This document shows, piece by piece, positions 9,100-32,517 of a stretch of 64,000 nucleotides of DNA. The stretch is from the NCBI GenBank assembly GCA_034670405.1, contig JAXDDX010000178.1:434001-498000 (forward strand), given 5' to 3'. The notes beneath the pieces were generated by a model, which saw only the letters and a program-made list of their open reading frames with translations, did not search any database and was not told the origin of the DNA. This stretch comes from Hoplostethus atlanticus. Lineage: Eukaryota; Chordata; Actinopteri; Trachichthyiformes; Trachichthyidae. The position numbers and the translations under genes were made by a program. The first letter of the stretch is position 1. Each line of letters opens with the position of its first letter.

Positions 9100-10212
9100 T
9101 CAGTTGGTAGCGACCTGGCCCTTCTCCTTGCTCAGCTGGTTCTGCAGACGGAGCTCCGTGTTTTGGGCCCTCAGTCTCTCCAGTTCTGTCTCCATCTCGC
9201 CGAGCCGGACCAGCGGGCTCTCCACGGTCAGACCCCCCGGCTCCACGGCGCGCCTCAGGCGGTTGTTCTCCTCCTCCAACCGGGACATGCACTTCTCCAG
9301 CTCCAGGTACTCCTGGACCAGCTCCTGCTTGGTCATGTTCTGCAGACTCTCGACGTGGTACTTCTCGTAGGTCTCGGAAAAGTCCCTCTGGAGAAACTCC
9401 CCACCTGCATTCCCGGGCCTCCCGATGCCGTCGCTGCCTCCGCCGCTACCATCATCCTCATCATCCTCGTTGTCGTTTATATCTTCCTCGCTGGCAGTGT
9501 CTTCCGTACGGCCACCAAAGCCGATGCCACTGGGTCCGGTGAGCCGTCTGACCCCGGTCTCGGTGTTCAGATCTGGCTCCTCTCTGTCGTGCTCATCCAT
9601 CAGGAACTGGGTGGTGTTGTAGGGGGCTACTGGGAGCCCTTTGGCGAACATCTCCTCTCTCACCCGGGAAGCCCTCGCAGTCTCTCTCTCATCGAGGGCT
9701 TTCTTTTCCTCCCAGGAAAGTTTGAAATAAGGCTTCCAGCGGCGCTTCCTCTTAGACGGCCGACGTCTGTGCTTTTTCTTGCCCTGACGCGCATCGGTGG
9801 CGGTGTCAGAGTCGATGTGCCTGCCGCTCTCCCCTTGCACTTGGCTTAAAGTCTCTTCCAGCGGTCCATCTCCGCTGTTACCGTGTGCCGCAAGATTGCC
9901 TTCCCCTGATGCATCGACAGCAGGCTCCTGGCGAGGCTGAGCTGCAACTGGGCACTTGGGGAGTGAGTTTCCGGATGCTAAGGCAGGGCACACCTCCCTC
10001 TGGCCGCCCTGCATTTGCCATAACTTGTCTGTGTTGATATCCCTTCCACCGTTTTCCGCCTGCTGCTGCTGGTCTCTCTGTCGCCCCCTATCGCCATTCT
10101 CTGGAGCGCCATGGTCGTTGGCTGAGAGATGCTCCTCAACGGCTCCGCTCCCACCTGATGGGGCGGCTGAAGTTTTCAGGTGATGTGTCTGGTCAGTGCT
10201 CGGTTCTGTCAT
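9100..10212 (-). CDS. hexim1: HEXIM1, 7SK snRNP / P-TEFb inhibitor (single exon)
   Basis: Uninterrupted 370-codon frame, as expected for the intronless HEXIM family (human HEXIM1 is 359 residues). Residues 1-140 are a low-complexity N-terminus. The arginine/lysine-rich RNA-binding and nuclear-localisation region is at about 145-160 (KKKHRRRPSKRKRRWKPY), followed by KLSWEEKK. The PYNT motif needed to inhibit CDK9 is at 197-200. Acidic stretches follow at about 209-260, and a C-terminal coiled coil (about 285-360) serves dimerisation and cyclin T binding. In this family the protein binds 7SK RNA, then sequesters P-TEFb and blocks Pol II elongation. The start is the first ATG of the frame, in the context ACCAGGATGA. 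The long plus-strand frame 9055-9849 is its antisense shadow. HEXIM2 is less likely on length, but it is a close paralog. Confidence 0.95.
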   Translation of the reverse strand: MTEPSTDQTHHLKTSAAPSGGSGAVEEHLSANDHGAPENGDRGRQRDQQQQAENGGRDINTDKLWQMQGGQREVCPALASGNSLPKCPVAAQPRQEPAVDASGEGNLAAHGNSGDGPLEETLSQVQGESGRHIDSDTATDARQGKKKHRRRPSKRKRRWKPYFKLSWEEKKALDERETARASRVREEMFAKGLPVAPYNTTQFLMDEHDREEPDLNTETGVRRLTGPSGIGFGGRTEDTASEEDINDNEDDEDDGSGGGSDGIGRPGNAGGEFLQRDFSETYEKYHVESLQNMTKQELVQEYLELEKCMSRLEEENNRLRRAVEPGGLTVESPLVRLGEMETELERLRAQNTELRLQNQLSKEKGQVATN

Positions 10213-10584
10213 CCTGGTGTTGTGTTGACGGGCTGCTTTCCCTTACCACATCTCAGGTGATGCTCCTGCCCAATCCCAGCTTTAAAGTCCTTTAAAACTC
10301 GTTAAACTTAATTTGACAAAAAATATATTGTTTCTTTTCTGTAAGATCAGCCACAATTACTTTCTGAGGAAAGTTGAGTTCAACTTTTAAAAGCGCACTG
10401 TCGCTATTTCTAAAGTAAAGTTCTGAGTAGTAAACACTTGTTACTCCTCAAAGGGTTCGTCAGAGCTACTGTTGCTAACTACCGTTAACTGTTTCGGTGC
10501 TGACGGCGCTGTCGTTCACCCAGAGACAACGTTTCGTCCCTACAACAGCGTCCAGTGTGCTACTCAAGAAGAAGGAGCTCGTGT

Positions 10585-18900: not shown

Positions 18901-21204
18901 CATAATTTTGTCTAATTGTCTTTTGCCTATGTTGTTCCATATCTCAACAACAGATGGGTAAGGCACATTATGTACAAGTCAGGTAACTTCCAGCAGTCTC
19001 CAGCTGAATGGTAATGTTTGTCCATGGGGTAGACCTCTTCCTGAAACTTGGAGTATGATTGTCATTTCATTTTAAAAATGACCTTTGTGAACATTGTGGT
19101 CTGGTATGTTTAATTTTCATGGAATGATTAACCTTCAATCCTCCATATCTTAATATTTAACCAAAGTAGAATCAATGTGTGCTAATGATAAAGTACATGG
19201 AAAATTTTCAACATAAGTCAATTTGCCCTTTACTTTAGTTTCAGTTTGAAAAAAGAGAAGTTGCTGGTCCACACTATTGGATTCACACTAAGGGCCGTGT
19301 GGTGTTTGAACTGTTGGAACGAGGGTCATGGAAACTGGTGTGTCAACATGATCTATATGTCCCTTTGGTAACTACAACATTGCAGTCCAAAATCATGAGA
19401 GACAGCAGCTCATTTAATCATGATCAGATCAAAACCAGCTCATACTGTAGGTTCAAATGGCCCTATGCTTTTAAATCCAATCTCAGAAAGGAGGATTTCT
19501 TTGGCAAAAATGTGTAAAATACTCCACAACATTTTGTTTACAACTATATGTTCACTGATTCAGATAATTATATATATGTATATAGACATACATATAGATG
19601 TATATAGCATTTAGACCTTTGTATTTTGTATTTTGTACCCTGCCTGTGTATTCTGTACCCTCTGTTTATTGTTGATACTGTTATGCTGCGTAACCCCAGA
19701 ATTTCCCCCTCAATAAAGTATCTATCTATCTATATATATAGACAGACAGACAGACAGACAGCTGGTCCTGTTGCTCATTGAGTTGCTATGGATAAAAGCA
19801 TCTGCTAAATGCCTGTAATGTAATGTAATGTAATGCTCTTCCTCTTGTCACACTTGCCCACAGAGCCCTGCTTGCCTACAGTATTCCTGCTTGTTGTATT
19901 GACGCCCCCAACATTTCCTTATACACAACAAATGATGATACATGCATTAATTCACAGCCCAGGCTCCACTGTTGTTGGGTGGTTGTGTCAAACTCATTTT
20001 CGATTAGATTTCCATCACTAGTAATAGCCAGACTAGTATGAACTGTATGTCCAGGCCGCTTTGCAACTTTCCGTGCTGTAACCATTATAACAGACTCCTT
20101 CTCCACGGTGCCTTGGACTGCTCCTGGCCCACGGGAGCAATAAATCTCAAATTTATCGACGGCTGATTCACATCTCAGCATTCACTTCCTCTCAACCATA
20201 TGAAGTCTAGCTTGGCAGAAGGAAAAAAAAAAAGGAAAACAAGCAGTAGCACGTTTGGTAACTCCTCTGTGTATATCTGTACAATGTAGAACAGTGAGAG
20301 TCCATGACAGCTTCACTCAGCACATTGAAACCTCGTCTCTGTGGTCATTCGCTCTAAGGTTTGTATATGAAACATAGTCTTGCGTTTAGGGTGTAAGCAG
20401 TGCAAGTGTTGACTGTATTTGTGATGCAGGGTTTGCCAAGTACAGTCAGCGAGGTGTGGTTCCAGAGGAGTATTGCTGCTGCTGTGTGAGGGGTTAGTCG
20501 CTCTGAAAAGCAACGCCCACTGCCAAGCTCTCGAAAGAGAAAAAAATACACTGTGATGTTTGGCTAAGTGGTACTACAATAAGGCAGGTGGATCAAAAAA
20601 AAAATAATCACTATAACATAATATTCCTATAGAGACCTTTATGGTATTACTGTAATATTCCTACTGGGGCTTATAGTTTTGCTGTGATATTTATATAGTA
20701 TTTTTCTTAAATAATACTTTTTCATGAGAGGACATCTGATGGTTTACATGTCTATTCTGTGGTATAGACTTCACAGCCATTGTGAAAGTAAGGCTGGGAG
20801 GAACTGCCAGACATGCACAAACACACATTATGAACTTTCTATGAACTTCATAAAAAGTGAGACTCAAAGAAAATGATGTCACGGAAAACTTGTCACCCTG
20901 AATGTGACACACTGACACACACGGACACACACAGTCAGGCCGAATCGCATTGTCTTTGCTTAAACGTCTGTGTGTTTTCTCCAGGGGTGCTAGACAATGA
21001 GGACATACGCGTGATGATGCAGGGCTCCAGCATGGTGAAGGTTCGCTCCCAGAGGTGGCAGAAGAGCCGAGACCTGAGGCTGCTGGAGGACGGGGTCACC
21101 GTGTGGTGCGAATCCACCAAGAGCTCCCGCAAGGCCAAAGCCCAGCAGACATGTAAGTATCCCTGAGGCCTGGAGCCAGGGGGGGGGGGAAGGTGAGCGG
21201 TAAG

Positions 21205-22655: not shown

Positions 22656-25600
22656 TTTGCTCTTTGTATGCATGACCTTTACCTCTCCCACCTCCACTGT
22701 GCTGGCGTCACTTCAGCAGTGTCTCTCCTCCCGATTATGGAATGCAGTTTGTTCTCCCTCGTGCCACCTCTCACCGCCACTCTGCACACTGTTTGCATGC
22801 AGCCCTGCACAGAGCGAGGGGGCAGGTAGTGGGTTTGTGGGTCAGTGGGTGTTGAAGGCAGTCTTGATTGTGCTGCAGCCGTGCCAGAAATAGAGACAGA
22901 GTGGCGGCGTTTGCAGAGTGTAACCCTCCAAATCACTATGTAGCACCATACAGTGATGCCGACACACAATGCTAGAGCAGGATGACAACTTCAGCAGACA
23001 GACACTGATATCGCCACACCGGCAGGCCACTGAGAACCGTGTGTGTGTGTGTGTGTGTGTGTGTGCCCAGGTTGAAAGCTGTTGCTGGCTCCAGGCGGTC
23101 TTCCAGGTCCAGTGTGATCAGTGGTTGTGGGTAGTTGTGTGGGAGAACTTGGGGCGGTTGAACACCAGACGAGCTGCAGCTTTCTGGACAAGCTCCAGGG
23201 GTCTGATGGCAGACGCCGGGGCACCACACACACACACACACACACATACATGTCACTCTTCCCATGCATATGGGCGGACTAAGAAAAAGGAATGTATCAG
23301 CAATTTTGAAGAGGTGTAAGGCGTGGATGTTTACAACCTCCAAGAGAATGGGGCTATTGTCCGGACAGACACTGCCTAGTGCCCATCTGAGCAAACAGTG
23401 CAAGCAATCGCTCACACAGCGCCGTTCTCTTCAGAGCAGAGACGGACAAACCCCTGTACTCAGTAAAGTTGTTGTGATAGGATCAGCTGGTGCCTTTTCC
23501 TCTATACTTTATTTGGACAGGCTAGTAGTGGGGTTGTATTTTCTGGGCAGCAAGTCAATGAATGTGCGTAGCTCTGCCATGGCATTGGATATAAGAGATT
23601 AAAAAAAGATCATTTAGCCTGTGAGATGACGTGGCTGCAGAGGGAGCATCTCCTGGGATTTAACTGAGGGCCCAGCTTTACACTTGAGTGTCAGTTTGTG
23701 TGCGGTGTGGCTGTTGCAGGTTAAATTTATCCTGCTGGAGAGCATGGTGGACATTCACTGCACTCAGGCCCGTACAGGTCATATTTTATAAGAGCCATGT
23801 TTGTACCCAAGCGTTGCCGTGTCACTCTCCTAGGCAAGATTTATGATTCCCCAAAACACTTCACCCTTGACCTTTAGCTAGTTTACTTCGGCTTCATGTG
23901 CTCCTGTTAGTGTCCAGCTCTGTTTACTCCACAAATCTCCCTCGGTGCTTTTTGTCCCTCTCGTCATTTATACCTCCCCCTCTCCTTTCCCAGTCTCGGT
24001 GACAGGAGGTGGAGTGCGTGCGCGAAGGCTGTCAGTCCGAGGCCCTGCGGAGGCTGTCCGGGTCGGTGCCGGAGAGCCAGTGCTTCACGGTGGTTTTCCG
24101 AGGAGCCAGGAAGAGCCTGGACCTGCTGTGCCCGTGCGAGGATGAAGCCCGGCGCTGGGTCCGCGGGATCCGCACCTTGAAAGAGCGCGTGGCCAACATG
24201 ACCCAGAAGGAGAAGCTGGACCAATATCCCTCCCTGTTTCCACACGCCAGCTCCCACAAAGAATAAATATAGTGCAGCTGAGACACAATTGCTATGGTGA
24301 CTGTCTGAGCATAGCGATGTCACATGTGCATCCCACATCCACGGCATAGCTAAGGTGTGCAGCAATGACTAGCAAAAAAAACACTGTCTAAATATAGTCT
24401 GAATAGCCTTGTCAGTTATAATCCCTCATAGCCACCTGGGTGTCATGGGTGCAGATCGCTCACAGCCCGCGACATGACGATCGTCCTCTGGTTCTCTTTA
24501 TAACTCCCTGATTTTCTGTTGACGCTTTTCTAGTTTTGAGAGCACAGAAAAAAGGGCAAGCCCAGACAGGACAGGTGGCACGGGGCTGCTCCTCTGTGAG
24601 AATAAGGCGTGGGTTTGTCTTCAGGTTGAAGGTTGAGGTTGAGTCTTTTTTTTGCAGTGTATTTTGTGCACACCAAAAGATGAATATTGACTGTTAGCTT
24701 TACTGGCATCCATGCGAAACAATGTCAAGTCAGTGTCATCAACAAAATGCCTCCAGCTGCACGTGGCTAAACATTTGGACTTCATTTTCAGTTACTTCAT
24801 ACAGACGTTGAGCCATCTTCACTGCAAGTAAAACTATTTTGAATTAGTGTGGAATACATCTGATCTAAGTGTATCGCTGCACAGTATCAATTTGTTTAGG
24901 TGTAGTCCGGTTTTATTCCTTAACCCCCTACACTTGGATCCGTGGCTACCTGAGGCGGGCCGATCAGAACCAGGACGGCAAGATGAGCTACGACGAGGTC
25001 AAACGACTGCTGCAGATGATCAACATTGACCTGAGCGAACAGTACGCCCGCTGTCTATTCAAGGTCAGGGTGATGTGTGCGTGTGAAGTCCTTTGTGTGT
25101 GTATCTGCACCACGTACTGTACGTGTTCGTTCACATGAGGAGTGGAGCGGAGAGAGGGAATAGAAGCGTTGAAATGGAGAGTCGCTGATGTTTTTGCTAG
25201 TTAGGGTCGTATCAGTTTACCCAGACAGCCTGCAGTGGAGAGTCTGTGTTCAATTACCAAACCAGTGGCAAGCCAACCGCCAACCCCCCCCTCCAACTCT
25301 CTAGACGTTCCCTCACATCTCCCCCACGACAAATCACAAGCCAGTTATTTCTTTATTGTGGAGGATTACTGCCCGCTATGCCCCTCAGCTCTCCATTACA
25401 GTTTAATTGTTGTTTTCATGCTCCTTCTCCAATACTGCCCCTCCCCAGAGAATAACATAGGGGCATTATGTAAGGATGAATGGCTGGTTTGAGTTATGGG
25501 GGTCCTGCCTCCCACGGGGGAATCTGGAGCGCTCCCAAAACAAAAGCATACCACATTTTGGCGCACGTCCACCCGTCTCTTTGTCTTGTTTGGCTGGTTA

Positions 25601-27317
25601 TTTCTTGCGTTAATCCTTTCTGTTTCTCTTGCTTCCTCTGCATCCCAGAAGTGTGACCGATCGTGCGATGGCCGCCTGGATCACATAGAGATCGAGGAGT
25701 TCTGCAGGGAGCTGCTGCGGCGGCCGGAGCTGGATGCCGTGTTCAGACACTACTCCAGCAATGGCTGTGTGCTCTCCACCGCCGAGCTCCGGGACTTCCT
25801 CGGAGACCAGGGGGAGGACGCCTCGCTGCTTCATGCTCAGACCCTCATACTCACCTATGAGCTCAATGACTGGGGTAGGTCCTTAAAGCTGCTCTAAACA
25901 CCTGGTGTCTGGTAAGTCTTTCCTGGGAAGAATCCTCTGGCACACAAGAAGTGATGCATTTTAAGTTTTGTTAGGAGTAAACAGAGGAAGAACTGGGTAG
26001 TTAGCATGAGCAGCGATAGCCACCGTGGCTGAGCAGATCAAGAAAAGAGCGCCACCTACAGAAACTTCAACAGAAAATCCAAGGAACATGGTTTGATTGA
26101 CAGGTGATCTCTGGGAAGTGCAGTGAGAAACACCACAGCGATGAGCGCTGAGCCCCAAAGATGTCACCAAAATAAAATAAAAAACAAGGAAATCACAGAT
26201 TACCACTTGAGATTGTTTCCTAGACTGTGATTAGTTTAATCCCTGTGATAGGAATGTGTGATTTAGTCTAAACCTTGTCTTGTCTTGTCTTGTCTTGTCT
26301 TGTTTGATGAACATGCATTGTCGTTCACTGCAGCCCAGAAGAACCAGTTCATGACCCAGAACGGTTTCACCATGTACATGCTGTCCCTGGAGAACGATGT
26401 GTTTAACCCCGACCATGCCAGAGTCCACCAAGACATGAGCCGCCCCTTGGCCCACTACTTCATCTCCTCCTCACACAACACCTACCTTACCAAGGACCAA
26501 GTCACCGGCGCCAGCAGCACCGAGCCATACATCAGGTATTCAGACAAGAGACCCTTGAGCCTTTTTTGATAACTACAGAGCATCAGACTGCACATAGAAA
26601 TGTGTAAACGTACTCAAAAGCAGCAACAAAAGGAAAAGTGGATGCAACAAAAAAAGCAAATTGCAACACAAAAATAACTCCTGGAATGCATTGAACATCA
26701 CAGATTGATGATGTTAGTTATGCCGGCTGTCACTCACAGGGCTCTGAATCAGGGGTGCCGATGTGTGGAACTGGACTGCTGGGACGGAGATAAAGGAGAA
26801 CCTGTCATATACCACGGGCACACTCTCACCTCCAAGGTGCCCTTCAAGGAAGTCATTGACACCATCGCCCAGTATGCTTTCAAGGTGACAGAAGCTGGAT
26901 TTGTTAACCTTTTCTGGTATAAATGGCAGTTTTGACACTATATTTTTGTCCTTGCTGCAGCATTAAGGCAGATTCTTGACATCTTGCCTCTGCAGAATTA
27001 CTACCGAAGCCCTTGTGGTTACAGCTGCATTCTTGGCGCTGCAATATCTTGGCTTTGACATAGTATACCAATACAGTGTCAGGTCCTGCGTTTATACATT
27101 GTGGTCCAATTGCACCTTAATGGCTTGATGTAACAGTTTCCCTGTGTTTGTGTCCACAGGCGTCTCCATATCCTCTGATCCTGTCCTTGGAGAACCACTG
27201 TTCTGTGGAGCAGCAGGCCGTCATGGCCAAACACCTCCGCGCCATCCTGGGCAGCAAGCTGCTCACCAAGCCCCTCAGCGACCAGCCCCTGAAAGATCTG
27301 CCTTCTCCTGAGGTAGG

Positions 27318-27350
<33 letters not shown>

Positions 27351-29823
27351 GTTCCCTTTCCCTAGGACGTCTGCCTATCCTGCCTGTGTGGGCGTTAATG
27401 CGACAAAAGCTTCCCTAACAAAGTAATTTGTTCCCGTGGCTCTCCTTGCAGGAGCTGAGGGGCCGTATTCTGGTGAAAGGGAAGAAAGAGATTCCTCACC
27501 TGGGTCAGCTGGGGAAGACCAGCAGCTACGCCAGCTTCTCCTCTAGCTCTGAAGATGAGTTAGCAGGCAGCAATAAGACCACGTCCAAGAAGGACCCCGC
27601 AAAGGTCAGCTCAGGAAGATCTATCGCTACACCGGTGCAATCTGATTGAGAAGCTGTTAAAGAAGTCACTCTAATATATACAAAGAAATAAATAAATAAT
27701 GTTTCATTGACCTGTTTTTGATGTTAAGCGCTGCTTTGCCCTTCCAAGGTGGTCTGTTGTAAACTGAGTCCAGAGCTATCGGAGCTGGTGGTGTACTGCA
27801 GGAGCGTTTCCTTCCGTGGGTTTGAAAACACATCCGGAAAATCACCCACTGAGATGTCCTCCTTCTCTGAGAGCGACGCCCTCAGACACATCAAAGACTC
27901 AGGTACAGCGGCGGCAATAATTCTGCATTCTGACATTATAGAGAGGAAGTCGAAAGATTTTGTAACGTCGCTTTATTGTAACTGGTTCTACAGAAAATAT
28001 AATCATCCTCTGGCGTATTCTAGCATTTGTTTTTCTGTCTTTGCATTCTTGCAGGGAAGCTGTTCGTGAGACACAACAGCAGGCAGCTGAGCCGGATCTA
28101 TCCCTCCGGCCAGCGCCTCCAGTCTTCCAACTATGATCCCCAGGAAATGTGGAATGGTGGCTGCCAGATGGGTTAGTACTCCAGACCAGAAGGTTTCTGA
28201 GATGCTGTTACGATGGCAGCTAATTTGGTCAATACATCTGAAAAACACCATGTAGTCAGTAACTGCCAACAGAATAAGGCCGATAGTAGACAGAGTGAAA
28301 TATTGTACTGACTTTCCCGGAAACCTTGTGTTATGCCAACACACACTGATGTCATTGGCTTTTCCCCCGATTCACTCAATTCATCATTCACTGACGCCGA
28401 AATGTTTACTGTTAGCATGTGGTGCGATTATGTTTGTTGTTGTGTCGCTGCCTCCGCTCTCCAGTGGCCCTGAACTTCCAGACACCCGGGGAGCAGATGG
28501 ACCTGAACCAGGGTCGCTTCCTTCCCAACGGCCGCTGTGGATACGTCCTCAAACCCAGCTTCATGTGCAGCCCCACGTCCAACTTCAACCCAGAGAACAC
28601 GGGAGGAGGCCCCGGCCACATCCCCACCCAGCTCACGATACGAGTGAGTGGTAACTTACTGATGAATTCATGACAATTTTGAGCGATTGACGCACATCTT
28701 TCTTAGATGATACTCATGTTACTGTTGGATTTTGATTGGATATTTTAAGATAATGTCAGTAATTTTCATATGAGAAATTGATATGCAGCAAGACTGACTG
28801 CAGACATTTTGCTTTCAGATAATATCCGCACAGCAGCTGCCAAAAATCAACACAGACAAGGCCAGCTCCATTGTGGACCCGCAAGTGTGGGTGGAAATTC
28901 ATGGGGTGGCCATTGATAATTCCAGAGACAAAACCCACCGCATTGACAACAACGGTAACCATTTCATTACTCACACTGAACCATGAAGCATCAACCCTAA
29001 AGCTTGGATTAGCTGCATTGGATATATGGAAGCTTCCAGTAGGTAGCTAGTACTCCCTTTTTTCATACATGCCTGATTATGATTTACTAGAGAGGAGGAA
29101 CAGAGAGAGGAGAAACAGAGAGCAGATGCCACCCACACGTTTGGACCAAAAAACAACACCAACAATTTCAAAAGGTCCGCCTTACCTTGATCACAGAATT
29201 CATAGTTTACCCACCCCTTTTTTTTACCACTACACCCCTGGTTATGATGGGATGGCATAAGATGCAATGAGGCTTTATAGTCAGAAAATAACATGAATCA
29301 TTTGGATACCTGACTGCACGGTGGAGATCTCTGAGGTGTTTGTGTAAGAGCCGTTTCTGTCCAACGCCATTACTTGTTTGTTTGAATGATCCAGTAGTAG
29401 ATGAGGTGTTGGTTGTTTTTTTTCACAGCTCTCTTGCGCCCTCTACAGGTTTTAACCCACGTTGGGACTGCACTCTGAGCTTCCAGCTGCAGGTCCCCGA
29501 ACTGGCCCTGGTGCGTTTTGTAGTGGAGGACCACGACCACACTGTCAAGAATGACTTTGTGGGCCAGCTCACAATACCGTTCACAAGCCTGCGCATGGGT
29601 AGGCACACCCGCTCTCTAGCTAATAAGTGATAAGTCTTTGTATGTTGTTTGTAATGCCCTGTACTCCTCTTTCTCCCCAGGTTATCGTCACGTCCACTTA
29701 CTGAAGGCAGATGGTTCCAGTCTGTCCCCCGCCACACTCTTTATCCACGTGAAAGTGTCCCGCAAAGGAGTTCCCATCAAAACGGTTTCAGAGCGTGTGG
29801 GCTTGGCCAAGGGCAAGGCATGA
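14761..29823 (+). CDS. plcd3: Phosphoinositide phospholipase C delta-3 (15 coding exons)
   Basis: Exons: 14761-14851, 20985-21152, 23994-24223, 24934-25063, 25649-25874, 26334-26535, 26740-26884, 27160-27312, 27452-27604, 27749-27902, 28055-28171, 28465-28643, 28819-28954, 29449-29598, 29681-29823. About 791 residues, against 789 in human. The enzyme cleaves PIP2 to IP3 and diacylglycerol at membranes, Ca2+ dependently. Order: PH domain (exons 2-3), EF hands (exons 4-5, loop [12 protein letters not shown]), X domain with catalytic His about 329 in [13 protein letters not shown] and the second His in [10 protein letters not shown] about 374, an acidic/Ser linker (exon 9), Y domain ([13 protein letters not shown] to VALNFQTPG) and a C2 domain (exons 13-15). 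Exon 3 carries one extra base relative to the reading frame, so as written the product would be truncated. The exon 3/4 intron is AT-AC. The zebrafish a or b copy was not assigned. Confidence 0.93.
15173..15584 (-). mobile_element. 5'-truncated L1/Tx1-type LINE insertion in plcd3 intron 1
   Basis: A 412-bp insertion flanked by a perfect 21-bp direct repeat (15152-15172 and 15585-15605, beginning AGGCAAGTTTC), the target-site duplication. On the minus strand it ends in AATAAA followed by an A run, abutting the left repeat. Upstream, the minus strand encodes a LINE reverse-transcriptase tail with [27 protein letters not shown] and FVQLWEPYM. All of this fits one target-primed reverse-transcription event. 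The short length and intact duplication suggest a fairly recent insertion. Confidence 0.85.
15953..15993. repeat. GT dinucleotide microsatellite, plcd3 intron 1
   Basis: About 20 GT units. A TTA trinucleotide run lies nearby at about 15706-15736. Apart from the LINE and the repeats listed, the 6.1-kb intron 1 (14852-20984) holds nothing I can identify. Confidence 0.95.
19618..19737 (+). mobile_element. Retroelement 3' tail ending in CAATAAAGTATCTATCT
   Basis: The segment begins with TTGTATTTTG repeats, passes through GATACTGTTATGCTGC and ends CAATAAAGTATCTATCTATC, running into a tetranucleotide array (19735-19760). The same family occurs reversed at 57569-57671, so this is a dispersed repeat. 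Such ends are typical of fish non-LTR retroelements that terminate in short tandem units. The clade is not assigned. Confidence 0.6.
19790..19834 (+). repeat. SINE/LINE-type tail (GGATAAAAGCATCTGCTAAATG)
   Basis: GGATAAAAGCATCTGCTAAA followed by a TAATG array is a very common 3' tail of fish L2/CR1-type LINEs and the SINEs that use them. A second copy lies at 32470-32517. Only the tail is recognised here. Confidence 0.6.
21209..21255. repeat. GT dinucleotide microsatellite, plcd3 intron 2
   Basis: About 23 GT units, starting 57 bp downstream of the exon 2 donor. Other arrays in this intron are CA-rich (21890-21958), TC (22609-22652) and GT (23040-23065). Confidence 0.95.
22609..22652. repeat. 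TC dinucleotide microsatellite, plcd3 intron 2
   Basis: About 21 TC units inside the 2.8-kb intron 2. Confidence 0.95.
23066..23224 (-). mobile_element. LINE reverse-transcriptase fragment, plcd3 intron 2
   Basis: Read on the minus strand, this encodes [20 protein letters not shown], which matches the conserved C-terminal block (LQ-x-AAARL, then F/S-H-x-T-P-L) seen in RTE/L2/CR1-like fish LINEs. The frame decays afterwards. The fragment is bounded by GT and CA microsatellites on both sides. Confidence 0.6.
24224..24933 (+). other. plcd3: U12-type AT-AC intron of plcd3 (intron 3)
   Basis: Exon 3 ends ...CTG GAC CA and exon 4 begins T TGG ATC CGT, giving the family-conserved LDHWI. The intron between them starts ATATCCCT (U12 consensus ATATCCTT) and ends CAC. 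It carries TTCCTTAAC at 24916-24924, a perfect U12 branch-site consensus, about 10 bases before the 3' end, the usual U12 spacing. No GT-AG pair restores this join: there is no AG next to the TGG ATC codons and no GT at the end of exon 3. Confidence 0.85.
26275..26303. repeat. TCTTG pentanucleotide repeat
   Basis: Five to six copies of TCTTG, 30-60 bp upstream of plcd3 exon 6, within or close to the polypyrimidine and branch region. Confidence 0.85.
27319..27348. repeat. CA microsatellite just after plcd3 exon 8
   Basis: About 15 CA units, starting 7 bp after the exon 8 donor site. Confidence 0.9.
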
Positions 29824-32196: not shown

Positions 32197-32268
32197 GGGG
32201 GTATAGCTCAGTGGTAGAGCATTTGACTGCAGATCAAGAGGTCCCCAGTTCAAATCTGGGTGCCCCCC
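32197..32268 (+). tRNA. tRNA-Cys (GCA)
   Basis: A 72-nt cloverleaf. The acceptor stem is GGGGGTA with TGCCCCC, the D-stem GCTC/GAGC, the anticodon loop CTGCAGA (GCA anticodon), and the T-arm CCCAG-TTCAAAT-CTGGG. Internal Pol III A and B boxes are intact (TAGCTCAGTGG and GTTCAAATC). It matches vertebrate tRNA-Cys closely. Two oddities: the discriminator base is C rather than the usual U, and no run of four T residues follows within about 50 bp. It could be an active gene or a recent tRNA pseudogene. No similar copy was noticed elsewhere in the window. Confidence 0.85.
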
Positions 32269-32429
32269 TGACTTGGTCCTTCTAAAAAATATTGTTTCTG
32301 ACCCTTTCTCATAGCACTTGTGTATTTATTTTATTCATTTACAATATATAGCTTATTAGACTTTAGCACTGGTTATGCTCTTAGATGCTTGTTTGGGGAG
32401 GAGATGCACTTAAGATTTTTGGTGACTGG

Positions 32430-32517
32430 CATTCAACAATCAGTTGAATGCACTTATTGTAAGTCACTTTGGATAAAAGTATCTGCTAAATGACTGTAAT
32501 GTAATATAAATGTAATG
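32430..32517 (+). repeat. SINE/LINE-type tail between tRNA-Cys and nmt1
   Basis: TGCACTTATTGTAAGTCACT then GGATAAAAGTATCTGCTAAA then TGTAATG-type units: the standard fish L2/CR1 or SINE tail, the same family as 19790-19834. It starts about 160 bp after the tRNA-like gene. Whether the two form one composite SINE cannot be told, because the sequence between is not recognised. Confidence 0.6.

Follow-up and report, generated by a model that had tools for sequence, protein, structure and literature searches.

A functional U12-type AT-AC intron almost certainly interrupts a fish PLC-delta3-like gene that lies in the window, by which we mean the whole 64 kb stretch of DNA analysed here (Table 1). 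The first-pass annotation had placed an AT-AC intron with a U12 branch site near its end at 24224-24933, and both coordinates and letters proved right. Exon 3 closes with CTGGACCA, the intron opens at 24224 with ATATCCCT, carries TTCCTTAAC and ends in CCCCTACAC at 24933, and the next exon starts with TTGGATCC; in codons, AAG CTG GAC CA is followed by ATATCCCT...TTCCTTAACCCCCTACAC and then by T TGG ATC CGT. The joined product reads KLDHWIRGYL, so that the LDHWI expected by the annotation is indeed restored, and the protein runs gap-free over the join against rat PLC-delta1 (1djg, which has LQHWI; E 1.5e-71). Retention of the intron would add 14 codons past GAC, and then a stop.

Table 1. Features of the PLC-delta3-like gene around the AT-AC intron (window coordinates)
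Feature	Position	Strand	Basis or remark
Upstream coding exon (exon 3), ending in K-L-D plus CA of the His codon	23994..24223	+	near its start, one base more than in homologues
Predicted U12-type AT-AC intron of the PLC-delta3-like gene, 710 bp, phase 2	24224..24933	+	protein join; best of 103 joins; same-codon U12-type donor in 8 paralogues
5' splice site ATATCCCT, 7/8 against RTATCCTT	24224..24231	+	consensus (A/G)UAUCCUUU, from a passage of PMC8199999
Branch site TTCCTTAAC, exact 9/9 match to the U12-type motif TTCCTTRAY	24916..24924	+	likely branch A 24923 (or 24922), 10 (11) nt from the intron end
3' splice site CAC	24931..24933	+	
Downstream coding exon, starting T/TGG ATC CGT (T completes the His codon; Trp-Ile-Arg belong to the first EF-hand)	24934..25063	+	
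Further modelled PLC-delta exons, encoding EF-hand, X, Y and C2, up to the stop	25649..29823	+	introns between them GT-AG

Splicing signals and host gene

The donor has C at +7 where the consensus has T, its sole mismatch to RTATCCTT. Being one base off, it does not deserve the word "textbook", which the annotation had used of the signals and which applies to the branch site only. In what we take to be the standard register, this C costs one pair with U11 and with U6atac. Typical U12 AT-AC introns have T at this position; they share with the window intron the 5' splice site, the branch motif, the short distance from branch to end and a phase other than 0, and no other difference was seen. Passages of two papers put the distance between the U12 branch A and the 3' splice site at 10-20 nt (PMC8199999), with an optimum of 11-13 nt (PMC3584512), and the distance found here (10 nt from A24923, 11 nt from A24922) lies at the lower edge of the published range. 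In the 19-base stretch that precedes the final three bases, 15 are pyrimidines, against 12-19 of 19 in the GT-AG introns of this gene, so the lack of a distinct polypyrimidine tract that marks U12-type introns is not evident here.

The RNAs that such an intron calls upon have matches in the same genome, all above the Rfam cut-offs: U6atac at 130.5 bits, U12 at 122.6, U11 at 112.7 and U4atac at 94.6 (a second one at 87.0). The U6atac includes the 25-base target of a published morpholino against U6atac, while a second match (L008, 68.2 bits, also over the cut-off) differs by one base on the coding strand within this conserved 25-base stretch and is perhaps a pseudogene. The U12 gene, on the minus strand of L009, holds GTAAGGAA, the complement of TTCCTTAAC with one A bulged, and the U11 gene starts with AAAAAGGGCTT. 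On the mechanism outlined in a passage of PMC3584512, U11 would recognise the donor ATATCCCT and U12 the branch site TTCCTTAAC, after which the U4atac/U6atac.U5 particle would join and U6atac would replace U11 at the donor. The exons would then be joined as CA/T TGG (His-Trp), at the boundary between the PH and EF-hand regions. From these letters we infer that the transcript is spliced by the AT-AC pair and relies on the minor spliceosome.

By its PH, EF-hand, X, Y and C2 domains and its similarity to PLC-delta1, the host gene is a PLC-delta. Pfam finds PI-PLC-X, PI-PLC-Y, EF-hand_like and C2 in the product, and the PH region upstream matches PLC-delta1 (1mai) with E 2.1e-26, the query carrying an X where the frame breaks, as described below. 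The model, which starts after the first coding exon, has 13 introns, 12 of them GT-AG and one AT-AC (24224-24933). An EF-hand region tree of nine rows, built without the third eta-like gene, groups the window gene with a close copy on C105 (100/99), apart from the delta1-like genes; its orthology to PLCD3 is putative. Its surroundings include a HEXIM gene at 9103-10242 on the minus strand (a single uninterrupted reading frame; Pfam HEXIM, E 1.2e-61), which we take to be a neighbour of PLCD3. Rfam at gathering thresholds returned nothing in the window beyond one tRNA and one UnaL2 element: a tRNA-Cys-like unit at 32197-32268 is followed by a UnaL2 LINE 3' element at 32445-32499, and 32197-32499 as a whole is a probable SINE of tRNA origin with a LINE tail. 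In intron 1, an ordinary one, the donor (21153-21164) reads GTAAGTATCCCT, so that a U12-like GTATCCCT lies four bases into a U2 donor of good quality.

Competing joins and competing readings

Enumeration of the in-frame, stop-free joins with donors at 24150-24419 and acceptors at 24700-25059 gave 103 candidates: 25 AT-AC, 22 AT-AG, 41 GC-AG and 15 GT-AG. The AT-AC pair 24224/24933 scored highest, at 140, and the runner-up, at 127, uses the same donor with an AC within the branch motif as acceptor. Joins of the other types were set aside, the best scoring 112 (AT-AG), 109 (GC-AG) and 94 (GT-AG). Within the gene itself the AT-AC intron is alone among the 13 modelled introns in having a donor match of at least 7/8 (the others reach at most 6/8) and alone in having a 9/9 branch motif (at most 7/9 in the others).

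How much of this could chance supply? The motif TTCCTTAAC occurs once in the window (0.61 expected) and RTATCCYT eight times (6.45 expected); observed and expected are close, so neither is unusual by count. What is significant is their placement, since the junction is set independently by protein homology. Under Markov simulation, an intron start at AT has a donor match of at least 7/8 in 0.46% of cases and an end at AC has an exact branch motif 8-20 nt upstream in 0.0065%, so that the chance product for both at one junction is ~3e-7; the joint event occurred in 0 of 200,000 simulations. The real window, read on both strands, has 8287 AT positions, of which 40 reach 7/8 or more against ATATCCTT; of its 7729 AC positions, 3 are preceded by a 9/9 branch motif whose A lies 8-20 nt upstream, a count in which neighbouring AC ends may share one motif.

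These results bear on the other ways in which the junction could be read. A nearby GT-AG or GC-AG pair might be the one used and the AT-AC match a coincidence, and the 15 GT-AG and 41 GC-AG joins that are open and in frame make this formally available. However, even the best of them (94 and 109 against 140) drop or gain residues at a conserved helix, none of the 15 GT-AG joins scores as well, in line with the annotation, which had seen no GT-AG alternative that restores LDHWI, and paralogues have U12 donors at exactly this codon; we regard this reading as extremely unlikely. The major (U2-type) spliceosome could instead remove the AT-AC intron, as it does some AT-AC introns according to a passage of PMC6717393. 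The pyrimidine-rich 3' end would suit such a route. Against it stand a donor, ATATCCCT, unlike the U1 consensus as we take it to be, an exact U12 branch motif 10 nt from the end, and perfect GTATCCTT or ATATCCTT donors in seven of the eight paralogues, which together leave U2-type removal very unlikely.

The copy might also be a pseudogene, or damaged, with an intron that is no longer productively spliced. This reading draws on the start of exon 3 (23994-24014), where 15 bases precede GTGGAG against 14 in PLC-delta1 and the C105 copy: the extra base breaks the frame, so the gene as it stands in the assembly would not yield a full-length protein. Yet from 24009 to the stop at 29823 the model reads through 700 aa without interruption, and the C105 copy apparently has one surplus base of its own in exon 3 (L006 ~150-165), in the same TGACAGG context. 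The recurrence suggests an assembly error, perhaps through a sequencing error that systematically affects this context (n=2); an assembly error seems likelier than a pseudogene, and the reading as a dead or damaged copy we consider quite improbable. A functional U12-type AT-AC intron thus remains by far the preferred reading.

The same codon across PLC genes

Paralogues were sought in the window's own genome (632.8 Mb) among the delta, eta-like and gamma-like PLC families, and the best candidates were scored, so the numbers of PLC genes are to be read as "at least". Exon 4 as query brought up one other close copy, on C105 (85% identity), and rat PLC-delta1 a further four delta genes, on C92, C60, C34 and C81. 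Ten further PLC stretches were fetched, of which five first gave a junction (two eta-like, three gamma-like). A third eta-like gene was taken in after the U12 pattern had already been seen; its first 9.7 kb held no junction, which lay in 20 kb more upstream. Elsewhere, viral contigs gave pattern matches with no relative confirmed, and bacterial genome contigs gave four loci with 34-35% identity over 54-59 residues; neither set yielded a eukaryotic relative.

All nine delta and eta-like junctions scored (six and three) have a U12-type donor, matching at 7-8 of 8, at the same codon and phase: the codon before the conserved Trp, phase 2. The annotation had proposed plcd1, plcd3 and plcd4 as the places to look for this intron, and in this genome the search bore it out in 6/6 delta genes found, with 3/3 eta-like genes besides. 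The branch match is 9/9 in three of the nine introns, 8/9 in one and 6-7/9 in five. Both plcd3-like genes are AT-AC: the window gene, on C178, is ATATCCCT-AC with a 9/9 branch, and the C105 copy has donor ATATCCTC, end CAC and a 9/9 branch, TTCCTTGAC, at 16 nt. Four genes are GTATCCTT-AG, namely C81 and C92, presumably delta4-like (branch 7/9 and 6/9), and the delta1-like C34 and C60 (branch 7/9 and 6/9), which are 64% and 58% identical to rat delta1 over exon 4. The genes that we take to be eta-like include L059 and L060, both ATATCCTT-AC (branch 9/9 and 7/9). In the third, L058 (C312; L067 8622-9293), donor ATATCCTT and branch CTCCTTAAC (8/9) accompany an end that reads AT at that codon, which implies either an AT-AT intron or a miscalled base. 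The introns of the two plcd3-like genes have no alignable body, with matches of only 9-17 bases that look like chance (E at least 1.3); selection has therefore probably preserved their ends.

At the aligned codon and phase (the phase read by eye), the gamma-like genes L057, L061 and L062 have GT-AG introns of U2 type, with donors GTAAAC, GTGTGT and GTACGC. In the PLC genes on C78 and C96 (L023, L024) the whole region is one open frame and hence without an intron there, and in L063 the matching stretch appears to continue in one exon, with no scorable junction. The unclassified PLC gene L055 (C1) gave no exon-4 match in 19.7 kb, and L056 and L064 no scorable junction in the stretches fetched.

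Age of the intron and its place in the family

Judged by its recurrence at one codon in every delta and eta-like gene scored, the U12-type intron is inherited, and U12-type introns at the same codon of related genes are what is expected of an old, conserved minor intron. Such conservation has been described in a passage of PMC2831892, according to which 156 of 180 clusters keep their U12 introns in every one of the eight vertebrate lineages, and at least 90% of the comparisons of human with other vertebrates find such introns conserved. Could a single ancestral intron account for the gamma-like genes too? We lean towards the view that one ancient intron before the Trp of EF-hand 1 predates the split of delta, eta and perhaps gamma PLC, and that it now persists in one genome in three states, U12 AT-AC (delta3, eta), U12 GT-AG (delta1, delta4) and U2 GT-AG (gamma-like), with AT-AT in one eta-like copy. 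The EF-hand tree puts delta3 beside delta1 (90/89, not starred) and does not orient the switch between AT-AC and GT-AG, two subtype changes being needed. Subtype switches and rare non-canonical ends of U12 introns are on record in a passage of PMC3584512, and passages of this and two other papers (PMC2831892, PMC7367187) describe switching of subtype or class among orthologous introns. The PLC members likewise divide into AT-AC, U12 GT-AG and, in the gamma-like genes, U2-type; the published switching, however, is between orthologues, and here it is between paralogues. If one ancient intron does underlie them, they would form a paralogue series for the conversion of intron class and subtype within a single genome.

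The annotation had called AT-AC introns rare, and for the intron class this stands. AT-AC introns make up ~24% of minor introns in mouse and ~22% in human (from a passage of PMC6717393). In this gene family such an intron is not unexpected, since minor introns occur in 60% of phospholipase C genes according to a passage of Baumgartner et al. 2019 (PMC6865273). As PLC genes are already published as rich in minor introns, the window intron is a new, conserved example of a type already known, and it agrees with these published accounts. That passage treats the same family without positions or subtypes, which are mapped here in nine paralogues of one genome. Our literature search found no paper joining "minor intron" with PLCD3 or "minor spliceosome" with PLCD1, and no PLC terms in the text of PMC13216214 and PMC12332006; supplements, which lay outside the search, may well tabulate the intron.

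The understanding of splicing itself is unchanged. For annotators, the practical consequence is that AT-AC should be allowed at this PLC junction, where standard gene finders may, as the annotation expected, miss exon 3 or exon 4, and for the study of U12 subtype switching the genome offers a small paralogue set. For the family, the intron would place the PLC-delta genes found here among the genes that need the minor spliceosome.
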